Shown: positions 43,023 to 46,581 of the stretch, piece after piece | Layout: each line of letters begins with the position of its first letter | Numbering within the stretch: the first letter of the stretch is position 1 | Assembly: GCF_024494595.1 (NCBI RefSeq) | Contig: NZ_JANHDI010000013.1 | Span: 62,001-126,000 of the forward strand | Length of the DNA stretch: 64,000 bases | Reading direction: 5' to 3' | Origin: Halobellus rarus | Lineage (GTDB): Archaea > Halobacteriota > Halobacteria > Halobacteriales > Haloferacaceae | Notes under the pieces: model-generated | Databases searched by the model: none | What the model was told of the DNA's origin: nothing | Seen by the model: only the letters and a program-made list of their open reading frames with translations | Position numbers and translations under genes: made by a program

Positions 43023-44258
43023 TCACGGTTCCGCGTCCGTGAATTCGTCGAGCGTCGCCGTCACACCGGGGCGCACGTCGGAGACGAGCGCCCCGTCGAG
43101 GTCGAGGCCGAGCGTCTCCGCGGTCGACCGTCCCGCCCGGTCCGTCTCCGAGGCGGGGACGTAGACGCCGAGCCGCCACTGCTGCTTCTGTGCCGTCCGC
43201 AGCGCCGACACCAGCGGCGACTGTTTGCCGAGCTGTCGCATCTCGCCGCTCACCATCACCCGCGAGGAGGACTCGGTCATCGACGGTCGCTTCGGGACGT
43301 CGACGACGACCTGCTCGGCGGGGAGATCCGCCCGATCGGCGATCGCCGCCTCGAGGTCCCGGAGCGTCGCGTAGTCGGCGTCGACGACGTCCGCGGGAAC
43401 GGCTTCGAGTTCGGCCCAGACCGCGCGCTTGTACAGGTCGCGGGTCCGCAGCCGGCGAGCGAGTTCGCCCGTCGCCTCCGTGGTCCGCAGCGCGACCAGC
43501 AGGTCGTGATCGTCCATCCGGCGGAGTTCTCTCGGCGTGGTGTCCGTCCGTTCGAGCAGCCGCTCGGCCCCCCGCCTGAGCATCGCCTTCGAGATGCGGG
43601 CGACGTGGTGCTGGTAGACGGTCGGATTCATCAACGCGCGCGCGAGCAGCAGCGACTCGGCCGTCTGGACGTTCCCCTCCGCGAGGACGAGTTCGCCGTC
43701 GACGAAGGTGAGCTCCCGGATCAGCCGCTCGTGGTCGATCGTGCCGTAGGGGACGCCCGTGTGGTGGGCGTCGCGAACGAGGTAGTCCATCCGGTCGACG
43801 TCGAGCTCTCCCGAGACGAGTTGACCGTACTGGCCCTCGCCGGCGACGAGGTCCGCGATGCGCTCGGGGTCGAGGTCGTGATCGCGGAGGACCGCTCCGA
43901 CCGCGCCCGCCGCGAGCAGTTCGTGGACGTCGTCGTGGTACTTTCCGGTGTGCCGGTGAGTGACGGATTCGACGTTGTGGCTGTACGGCCCGTGGCCGAC
44001 GTCGTGGAGCAGCGCGGCCGCGCGGACCCGCTCGCCCTGCCGCCCGCCGATCCCCAGGTGATCGAGCGCGCGATCCGCGAGGTGGTAGACGCCGAGAGAG
44101 TGCTCGAACCGCGTGTGGTTCGCGGAGGGGTAGACCAACTGGACGGTTCCCAGTTGCTTGATGTGCCGGAGCCGCTGTACCGGCTCGGTGTCGAGGAGGG
44201 CGGCAGCGACGCCCTCGACCTGGATGTGGTCGTGGACGCTGTCCTTGATCGTCGCCAT
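43023..44258 (-). CDS. HD-domain phosphohydrolase (dNTPase-like)
   Basis: A 411-aa protein. RFEHSLGVYHLADRAL and ALLHDVGHGPYSHNVES are the HD-domain metal ligands, and DVDRMDYLVRDAHHTG the downstream Asp motif. It is related to archaeal SAMHD1/dGTPase-like hydrolases. Residues 335-411 form a separate C-terminal domain. The start at 44258 (MATIKDSVHDH) fits the family; GTTTTTGTAC about 27 nt upstream is the likely TATA element. A much longer reading to 44765 crosses the hairpin array and was rejected. Confidence 0.9.
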   Translation of the reverse strand: MATIKDSVHDHIQVEGVAAALLDTEPVQRLRHIKQLGTVQLVYPSANHTRFEHSLGVYHLADRALDHLGIGGRQGERVRAAALLHDVGHGPYSHNVESVTHRHTGKYHDDVHELLAAGAVGAVLRDHDLDPERIADLVAGEGQYGQLVSGELDVDRMDYLVRDAHHTGVPYGTIDHERLIRELTFVDGELVLAEGNVQTAESLLLARALMNPTVYQHHVARISKAMLRRGAERLLERTDTTPRELRRMDDHDLLVALRTTEATGELARRLRTRDLYKRAVWAELEAVPADVVDADYATLRDLEAAIADRADLPAEQVVVDVPKRPSMTESSSRVMVSGEMRQLGKQSPLVSALRTAQKQQWRLGVYVPASETDRAGRSTAETLGLDLDGALVSDVRPGVTATLDEFTDAEP

Positions 44259-44375: not shown

Positions 44376-44383
44376 TTTTATCC
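44376..44383 (+). promoter_or_regulatory. Candidate TATA box of the hairpin RNA
   Basis: GTTTTATC lies in the only A/T-rich stretch of the gap and would start transcription near 44405, just before the hairpin array. Confidence 0.35.
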
Positions 44384-44404
44384 GAATTAACCGGGTTTTC
44401 GTCG

Positions 44405-44772
44405 CCGGGGGGCGGTGAATTCGGCTTGAGTATCGTCCCGGTTGAAGTGTTCCGGCCCGCAAGCGTCGACCGCGTCGCCGTGCCTCGTGGCGCGGCGTCG
44501 CAACGCGGTCGTCCCGATGGATGGTCGCGGCGGCCGCTTCCCGGGGCTGGCACCGGAACGCGATCAACCCGCGTTCCGTGTCGTCGGCCGCGGCTCCGAC
44601 GCGCCGACGCCCGTCGGTTCTCCCGTCCCGGCGGGCGTCGGCACGTATGCGAGCGGGCCTGACCACCCGCTCGCCACCGAGCGCCGGCCGGTCGTCGCCC
44701 CACCCGGCGACCGGCCACAGAGGCACCCGCTCCCGCGGGCGAGAGAACGCCCGCACGATCGACACCCCTTTT
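44405..44772 (+). ncRNA. Candidate structured RNA: seven hairpins in series
   Basis: Perfect or near-perfect stems follow one another: 44467-44475/44503-44511 (9 bp) enclosing 44476-44484/44489-44497 (9 bp with one U-G); 44554-44562/44570-44578 (9 bp); 44583-44587/44596-44600 (5 bp); 44603-44613/44632-44642 (11 bp); 44649-44657/44666-44674 (9 bp); 44686-44694/44708-44716 (9 bp); 44726-44730/44735-44739 (5 bp). CCCCTTTT at 44765-44772 could terminate. The U-G pair favours the plus strand. I see none of the conserved motifs of RNase P or SRP RNA. It may be a free RNA or a long 5' leader of the kinase gene. Ends are estimates. Confidence 0.5.
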
Positions 44773-44889
44773 CGGAAACGTCGTTTGCACGCGTTCGATC
44801 ACGTGCTCGCGGTCGATCGCGATCAGATGCGCAGTAGACTGCAGACGTCACGATAGCGCCCGGGACCGGTTCGACAATTCGGTGGGTTG

Positions 44890-46581
44890 ATGCCGTTGCC
44901 CGCTAACGGTGGAGCACAACAGGGACGGATGCTGTCACTATCCTATTCGAGCGCGCTGTACGGTGCGTACGTGTTCGCCTTCGCCGCCGCCGCTGTCGCC
45001 TGTCTCGCGATGCTGCCGCGCACGCGGCACATCGAACACGAGGACACCAGGAGGGGTCTCTTCTGGCTTCTCGTCACGAGCGGCGGGTGGGCGGCCGCAC
45101 ACGTCGGCTACCTCACGATGCCGACCGTCGGGCTCCAGTACACCTTCTACGTGATCGGACTCGTCGTCGGTATCGCCTCGGTCGGACCGTGGCTCTACTT
45201 CTGCGCGGCGTACACCGGTCGGTCCGTCCACCGCGACCCGGCCGTCCGTCGGGCGTTTCTCGTCGTGTTCCTCGCCATCGTCGCGGTGAAGCTGACGAAC
45301 CCGGTGCACAACTGGTACTTCGTCGCCGAATCGGCGGTCGTCCCCTTCGCGTATCTCGAGATCAACCACCGCGCGTTTCACTGGATCGCGATGGGGCTTG
45401 CGTACTCGCTCGCGTTCGTCGGCTTCTTCATGCTCTTCGAGCTGTTCGTCCGGGTCAACTCCGACACCCGCCCGCTCTTCGTCCTCATCGGACTAACGGG
45501 CATCCCAGTGGTCCTCGACGTCGCGGGCGCGGTGTCGCCGGCCGTCCTCGACATCACGTACTCCTCGATCGGCGTGGCCGCCTTCGCCGTCGGCGTCTTC
45601 TCGCTGTACTTCGACCGGTTCCAGTTCGTCCGGGTCGCGGGCGAGACCGACGATCCGATCGTGGTCGTCGACGGGGGCGGCAAGGTCCGGGACTACAACA
45701 GGCGCGCGGAGGGTCTGTTCCCGTCGCTCGCGGACTCGATCGACGAACCGCTCGCAGAGTTCGTTCCGAGACTCGCGGACGTGCTCGACAGGAAGAAGTC
45801 GATCCTCGAGATCGAAGACGGCGAGACGACCCGGTACTACAACGTCTCCTCGAACCCGTTCACGACGGGGGGCGCAGAGACGGGACAGTCGATCGTCCTC
45901 TCGGACGTGACGCACCGCGAGCAGTACCGCCAGGAGCTGGAGGCCAAAAACGAGAAGCTCGAACAGTTCGCGAGCATCGTCTCCCACGACCTCCGGAACC
46001 CGCTTCAGGTCGCGAAGGGCCGGACCGACCTCGCGATCGAGGACGGGAACACCGAGCACCTGGAACCGGTCGTCCGGGCGCACGAGCGGATGGAGCAACT
46101 CATCGAGGAGATGCTGACTCTCGCGAGGGAGGGCGTCTCGATCGACGAGACCGAACGCGTCGATCTCGCCGGTCTCGCGAGGCGGTCGTGGGGTATGATC
46201 GCCGGGGGGCAGGCGTCGCTCTCGATAGACGACGACGTCGACGTGACCGTCTCCGCGGATCCCGAGCGCCTCCAACAGCTGTTCGAGAACCTGTTCCGAA
46301 ACGCGATCGAGCACGGCGGCGACGACGTCGTCGTGAGCGTGGGCCCGCTGGAAGAGGGCGACGGCTTCTACGTCGAGGACGACGGGGCGGGAATCCCCGA
46401 GGAAGACCGCGACGAGGTCTTCGAGGCGGGCTATACGACCTCGGACGACGGCACCGGATTCGGCCTCGCCATCGTCTCGGAGATCGTCGACGCCCACGAG
46501 TGGGAGATCCGGGCGACGGAGGCCGCCTCCGGCGGCGCGCGCTTCGAGATCCGGACCGCGTCGGAGTACGCCCAGGAGTGA
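44890..46581 (+). CDS. Seven-span membrane PAS histidine kinase
   Basis: A 563-aa sensor. The first 235 residues contain about seven membrane spans of the N-terminal 7TM histidine-kinase type (IGLVVGIASVGPWLYFCAAY, NHRAFHWIAMGLAYSL). A PAS domain follows (about 245-345), then the kinase core with SIVSHDLRNPL (His 366), LFRNAIEHGG, DDGAGIPEED and GTGFGLAIV. A TTG at 44887 and an ATG at 44929 (MLSLSYSSAL) are alternative starts. The gene follows the hairpin array and lacks an obvious TATA box near its start, so its mRNA may carry that structure. Confidence 0.92.
   Translation: MPLPANGGAQQGRMLSLSYSSALYGAYVFAFAAAAVACLAMLPRTRHIEHEDTRRGLFWLLVTSGGWAAAHVGYLTMPTVGLQYTFYVIGLVVGIASVGPWLYFCAAYTGRSVHRDPAVRRAFLVVFLAIVAVKLTNPVHNWYFVAESAVVPFAYLEINHRAFHWIAMGLAYSLAFVGFFMLFELFVRVNSDTRPLFVLIGLTGIPVVLDVAGAVSPAVLDITYSSIGVAAFAVGVFSLYFDRFQFVRVAGETDDPIVVVDGGGKVRDYNRRAEGLFPSLADSIDEPLAEFVPRLADVLDRKKSILEIEDGETTRYYNVSSNPFTTGGAETGQSIVLSDVTHREQYRQELEAKNEKLEQFASIVSHDLRNPLQVAKGRTDLAIEDGNTEHLEPVVRAHERMEQLIEEMLTLAREGVSIDETERVDLAGLARRSWGMIAGGQASLSIDDDVDVTVSADPERLQQLFENLFRNAIEHGGDDVVVSVGPLEEGDGFYVEDDGAGIPEEDRDEVFEAGYTTSDDGTGFGLAIVSEIVDAHEWEIRATEAASGGARFEIRTASEYAQE

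Follow-up and report, generated by a model that had tools for sequence, protein, structure and literature searches.

A conserved hairpin-rich locus of Halobellus that probably encodes a free-standing structured RNA

Introduction

In Halobellus rarus, a gap crowded with hairpins runs from the start of an HD-domain gene on the minus strand (~44258) to a histidine kinase gene on the plus strand (from 44887, with HisKA_7TM, HisKA and HATPase domains), which raises the question of what this DNA encodes, if anything. The window, i.e. the whole 64-kb stretch of DNA analysed (contig NZ_JANHDI010000013.1, positions 62,001 to 126,000), had been read before from its letters only. That sequence-only reading placed seven hairpins at 44405-44772, regarded them as a candidate new structured RNA, and named three options: a free RNA, a structured leader of the kinase gene, or a DNA-level element. 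The locus was compared with its relatives, and all coordinates below are those of the window.

Results

Conservation and coding status of the locus

Alignment of relatives delimited a conserved unit at 44376-44774, flanked on either side by far less conserved DNA, with a sharp drop in conservation between a terminal T-run and the kinase start. The block was kept in ten Halobellus genomes. Among 60 related genomes, a search at the DNA level recovered it in seven congeners (89, 83, 72, 71, 69 and 68% identity, plus one 75% fragment), and a covariance model of its 5' half recovered it in two further genomes; relatives carrying it included H. rufus, H. captivus ZY21, H. inordinatus, H. clavatus and Halobellus sp. 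Atlit-31R. Several genomes placed in the genus gave no match, including G004, G005, G009, G011 and G012. Within the source genome the block was single-copy, no second copy being found.

The region proposed as RNA does not code for protein, as no frame was consistently open in the genus on either of its strands and 2-nt indels separated relatives that were 89% identical there. The sequence-only reading had likewise seen no credible gene in the 631-bp gap.

Fold stability

The plus strand of the locus folded 6.4 standard deviations better than dinucleotide shuffles, none of 100 shuffles being as good, and the minus strand 3.1 standard deviations better; for 44472-44772 the fold z-score was -6.3. 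For the segment starting at 44472, the energy gain over shuffles (-39.4 kcal/mol) was the largest among the 214 plus-strand segments of 300 nt taken across the 64 kb (mean gain = -2.0 kcal/mol, sd = 7.4), and the runner-up overlapped this segment. The hairpin cluster, for which a comparison with shuffled sequence had been proposed, was accordingly the most over-stable of the 214 stretches. Fold z-scores ranged from -2 to -7.7 across ten relatives, being negative in each.

Hairpins and compensatory changes

Fold stability, genus-wide conservation and compensatory changes together delineated a predicted noncoding RNA of ~301 nt on the plus strand (44472-44772, both ends being predictions), which comprised seven hairpins, H1 to H7, all on that strand. 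H1 (44472-44501) scarcely varied within the genus, but three of its pairs showed two-sided changes across genera and in the family f17. H2 (44505-44537) carried the loop TGGATGG at 44518-44524, of which GGATGG was invariant. H3 (44554-44578, inverted repeat I8) had CCCCACC as its loop region in most relatives; changes in its stem were visible in the alignment and lie outside the pair counts. The two-part hairpin H4 (44599-44646, inverted repeat I1) displayed the loop TTCTCCCGTC at 44618-44627, H5 (44649-44674) the loop CCTGACCA at 44658-44665, and H6 (44686-44716) the loop region CCCCACCC. An unpaired conserved signature, ACAGAGGCACCC, followed at 44717-44728, then H7 (44735-44754) and a near-invariant 3' end, GATCGACACCCCTTTT (44757-44772), which is a candidate U-tract terminator.

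Pairs were counted after registering the hairpins by hand and eye, with 7-10 related sequences per helix (eight for H6) and with shuffled and slid controls. Two-sided changes were found at five pairs each in H2, the inner stem of H4, and H5, and at four pairs each in H6 and H7. By shuffle statistics that ignore the kinship of the sequences, covariation was 0.267 in H2 compared to 0.142 in shuffles (reached by 0 of 500), 0.488 compared to 0.230 in the inner stem of H4 (0 of 500), 0.259 compared to 0.120 in H5 (2 of 500), 0.310 compared to 0.203 in H6 (1 of 500), and 0.517 compared to 0.196 in H7 (0 of 500). For each helix with compensation, the counted register beat every slid register. The stems for which a covariation test had been suggested therefore showed two-sided compensatory changes in H2, H4, H5, H6 and H7, and in H1 across genera. 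The most diverged Halobellus members were without clear equivalents of H6 and H7.

The caps and linkers of these hairpins were near-invariant, i.e. (U)GGAUGG, CUCCCGUC, UGACC(A)CC, CCCCACC, ACAGAGGCACCC and GAUCGACACCCC, and stems that compensate while their loops stay fixed speak for selection at the RNA level. The many perfect inverted repeats inside an intergenic gap could also be taken for a DNA-level element, such as an array of protein-bound palindromes or a recombination or replication site. That reading is very improbable, because conservation lies in the loops and compensated variation in the arms, whereas a protein-bound palindrome would show the opposite. In addition, one strand folds clearly better than the other, the unit is bracketed by a conserved promoter and a T-run, and the gap showed neither direct repeats nor the structure of a mobile element. 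Of the options named beforehand, the DNA-level one is thus disfavoured by the conserved loops and compensating arms themselves.

Promoter and ends of the RNA

Upstream of the hairpins, 17 sequences shared one order of elements: an A/T-rich double box, an imperfect palindrome, GGTTGAAGT, ~20 variable bases and an invariant GCG. The A/T-rich box, TTTTATCCGAATTAACCGGGTTTT (44376-44399, plus strand; genus consensus TTTAGCCGAATTTAGCCGGATTT), was near-invariant in Halobellus and partly kept in other genera. The imperfect palindrome, TGAATTCGGCTTGA (44416-44429, plus strand), is a candidate regulator site whose distance to the TATA-position box downstream is constant across the 17 sequences, and took the form TGAA-N6-TTCA in Halogeometricum-type relatives. 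The candidate BRE/TATA-position element, GGTTGAAGT (44440-44448, plus strand), contained TTGAAGT, which was invariant in all 17. Some 27 bp separate the centre of TTGAAGT from the invariant GCG, which is the usual archaeal distance from TATA box to transcription start. In the source genome, CNCGGTTGAAGT occurred once.

A variant with GGTTTAGGT occupied this TATA position before secreted-protein genes. In the protein genes under this promoter, the ATG lay 3 nt past the GCG, i.e. the message would be leaderless, a term that in Haloferax covers transcripts with zero to five leader bases and applies to 72% of coding transcripts (PMC4983044). By its sequence and spacing, 44376-44448 is a conserved promoter, from which an RNA start near 44472 is predicted; the first 70-95 bases of the conserved unit are thus promoter and not RNA. 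A 5' end at 44405-44420 was ruled out, as 44376-44448 acts as promoter and precedes leaderless open reading frames in other lineages. The stems reported beforehand were found where they had been placed, but the start at 44405 was set ~67 bp too early, with the RNA running from ~44472. The sequence-only reading had also noted a TATA-like A/T-rich site ahead of the hairpins. In this promoter class, the TTAATCCGGATTAA-like double box and the palindrome TGAA-N6-TTCA, both before the BRE/TATA-position box, are candidate binding sites for a haloarchaeal regulator.

Comparison with known RNAs

None of the 4227 families in Rfam 15 matched the locus or its relatives from other clades at the gathering threshold, and a permissive Rfam search of the locus returned chance-level matches only. 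The archaeal RNase P RNA (RF00373) and SRP RNA (RF01857) had no match in the window, their genuine copies being located elsewhere in the genome (G000:C24:80529-80968, 127 bits, and G000:C18:307628-307938, 184 bits, respectively). The covariance-model search thus left the locus without a family, and the earlier remark that no RNase P or SRP motif could be seen holds. With its conserved, compensated stems and no Rfam match, the cluster stands as a candidate new structured RNA.

No description of the RNA was found in the literature searched. Halo- taxa go unmentioned in the main text of a survey of 104 motifs (PMC2864571). A conserved 209-nt intergenic sRNA from Halobellus limi is among those listed in a halite metatranscriptome study (PMC7002113), and this itsRNA may be the same RNA.

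The same locus in other haloarchaea

When 392 genomes of the order were compared with a sequence-only model of the promoter, R3, 140 gave matches with E <= 0.01, many of them weak. At the loci inspected, strong matches usually adjoined guaAb and/or preceded cupin, beta-RFAP or KaiC-like genes. In Halobellus itself, the ancestral guaAb neighbour has given way to minus-strand HD-domain and amidohydrolase genes (43023-44258), and the 7TM histidine kinase gene (44887-46581) lies between the RNA and the cupin/KaiC-like genes.

Two kinds of gene followed the promoter. The first was hairpin-rich noncoding DNA. It occurred in Halobellus and two more genera of its family, g7 and g47 (the latter with Halogeometricum pallidum), as well as in the families f17 and f7. 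The second, found in several other lineages such as Halobacterium-like ones, was a gene that encodes a secreted acidic protein on a leaderless message. A GAGGCAC signature, usually CAGAGGCACCC or else CCGAGGCAYCCA, recurred in the noncoding kind of all groups: ACAGAGGCACCC of Halobellus reappears in the Halogeometricum-type genus, g7 and f17, and in f7 as CCGAGGCAYCCA. At the position of the RNA gene the signature was present in 0 of 19 protein-kind loci, with two incidental matches elsewhere. In the genome, CAGAGGCACCC occurred four times, no more than its reversed control.

As the RNA bodies of f7 and f17 could not be aligned to the Halobellus RNA, their homology is only inferred, from locus, promoter and short motif. 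The body of the f7 noncoding gene was extremely conserved (GGAGGUCGACGGG...CCCGUGACUUCC...CCACCACAGCACCCUUCCCCCACC). In this family (L095-L101, L103-L106, L113), the noncoding gene was ~230 nt long, lay after guaAb on its 3' side, also contained the invariant CCACCACAGCACCCUUCCCC, and had no Rfam match. In one Halogeometricum-type genome, a 3' module (CACAGGCAGACGCACYCACC...CGACACCCC) was present four times, which suggests a functional unit open to multiplication; at this locus (L059; L044), CACAGGCAGACGCACYCACC(CACCC)nCGACACCCC stood in four tandem copies with spacings of 45, 36 and 36, ~240-370 nt past the TATA-position box.

Secreted acidic proteins were encoded on the promoter class of the RNA at L072-L085, L087, L089, L090, L122 and L124, and in the source genome at G000:C16:354905-355213. 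Many of them shared a C-terminal GPPxELPxxVPxxVxxIH motif, and those of L072 and L124 matched no Pfam family. The Halobellus homologue sits away from the RNA locus, behind a promoter that is similar though weaker and has GGTTTA(GG/CG/CA) at the corresponding position. A co-regulated set of surface genes under this promoter class is likely.

Since protein genes use the same promoter and locus elsewhere, with an ATG 3 nt past the GCG in Halobacterium-like and other lineages, the Halobellus locus might likewise encode a small protein. This is very unlikely: Halobellus has no start codon at that position, close relatives differ by 2-nt indels and share no open frame, its homologue of the secreted-protein gene is present elsewhere, and coding would not predict compensatory changes in stems.

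The neighbouring genes also bear on whether the hairpins form a structured 5' leader or cis-regulator of the kinase gene. In Halobellus this gene comes next, in the same orientation as the RNA and 115 bp beyond the T-run. In other genera, among them Halogeometricum, the genes downstream of the RNA locus encode a cupin, a beta-RFAP synthase or a KaiC-like protein, and no kinase was found there. The constant link to one downstream gene that marks a riboswitch or 5' leader was thus lacking. Moreover, the conserved T-run closes the conserved block and conservation falls steeply before the kinase start. Because the kinase is not a constant neighbour, a leader function is improbable.

Exposed C-rich motifs and base-pairing tests

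Exposed CCACC, CACCC or CCCAC motifs were counted in the RNAs of each group. They numbered 3.9 per RNA in Halobellus compared to 1.0 in shuffles (z = 7.0), 14.5 compared to 3.7 in g47/g7 (z = 13.7), 7.8 compared to 2.3 in f7 (z = 9.4) and 3.5 compared to 2.1 in f17, where the excess was weak (z = 2.1). With unpaired C-rich motifs above shuffles, the common theme of these RNAs would be rigid stalks presenting C-rich single strands.

Paired with 16S, 23S, RNase P and SRP RNA, the conserved loops showed no excess over shuffled motifs, apart from one post hoc 23S match. The signature ACAGAGGCACCC (44717-44728) could pair with 23S rRNA (L198) directly 3' of the sarcin-ricin loop at -19.4 kcal/mol, a value reached by 1 of 100 shuffled motifs; this match contains a mismatch, was one of 28 motif-target pairs examined, and is probably due to chance. 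Such pairing would favour an RNA acting on the ribosome, and an ACA follows two hairpins, at 44717-44719 (after H6) and 44762-44764 (near the 3' end), as in an H/ACA-like guide. An RNP scaffold or guide RNA in place of a regulatory one is still unlikely, as the Rfam guide families were unmatched and no pseudouridylation pocket was recognised by eye.

Discussion

Among the three options named at the outset, the free RNA agrees best with the conserved promoter at fixed spacing, the compensated stems, the conserved loops, the C4-T4 end and the lack of an Rfam match. The locus is quite probably a free-standing, independently transcribed noncoding RNA gene, whose hairpins present C-rich loops and whose product would act in trans, probably as a regulatory RNA. 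Transcription is predicted to start at ~44472 from GGTTGAAGT and to end at the C4-T4 run near 44772, giving a product of ~300 nt with at least seven consecutive hairpins. These hairpins would serve as rigid stalks holding conserved, largely C-rich loops and linkers (CCCCACC, CUCCCGUC, UGACCACC, ACAGAGGCACCC and GACACCCC), which are the presumed working part of the molecule. Action in trans would most likely proceed through several CCACC-like sites, whose partner could be an RNA-binding protein, held as by a sponge of the CsrB kind, or G-rich stretches of mRNA. To our knowledge, no CsrA-type partner of the Halobellus RNA has been described. The RNA would probably be expressed alongside the cell-surface set of secreted proteins, because the promoter class is common to both.

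Several known systems offer points of comparison. The bacterial sponge RNAs CsrB, CsrC and RsmZ (PMC4005645, PMC7652899) likewise consist of successive hairpins whose loops and linkers repeat a short motif, and exposure of one repeated motif by several hairpins was found here too, in f17 only at z = 2.1; the motif of the Halobellus RNA is CCACC-like instead of GGA, and a sponge action is proposed by analogy. Haloarchaeal intergenic sRNAs, such as sRNA132 of Haloferax volcanii (PMC6560208) and the itsRNAs listed for halite (PMC7002113), are also archaeal, intergenic and outside any Rfam family, and have their own promoter, as is predicted here. The Halobellus RNA differs from these in its predicted length of ~300 nt, its seven hairpins with compensatory changes and its invariant loops, as well as in having syntenic RNA genes in several families and a promoter in common with secreted-protein genes. 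Archaeal RNase P and SRP RNAs resemble it in length, structure and copy number, but both have their own genes elsewhere in the source genome and do not match it. Conserved unpaired C-rich loops such as UCUCCC are a further likeness, to the C-rich-loop sRNAs of bacteria, e.g. RsaE, which pair with Shine-Dalgarno regions. Since most messages of haloarchaea lack a leader (72% of coding transcripts in Haloferax, PMC4983044), a Shine-Dalgarno target is somewhat less likely for the Halobellus RNA. This RNA is rated as a new family of a known type, the structured trans-acting sRNA.

A bolder and rather doubtful proposal is that one conserved promoter and locus passed from a protein gene to a noncoding RNA, or the other way round, and that the RNA is a sponge for a CCACC-binding archaeal protein controlling a cell-surface programme. 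If true, this would be an archaeal counterpart of the CsrA/CsrB system.

Besides the universal ones, very few structured regulatory RNA families have been defined in archaea. The locus adds a gene present in one copy, whose promoter can be recognised, whose seven or more hairpins mostly show paired changes, and whose loops are fixed. Several haloarchaeal families have counterparts at the same locus, and some of these organisms may prove more convenient to culture and engineer. Its concrete loop motif provides a bait for archaeal RNA-binding proteins, and the locus itself offers a testable case of one promoter and one position switched between protein-coding and noncoding use.
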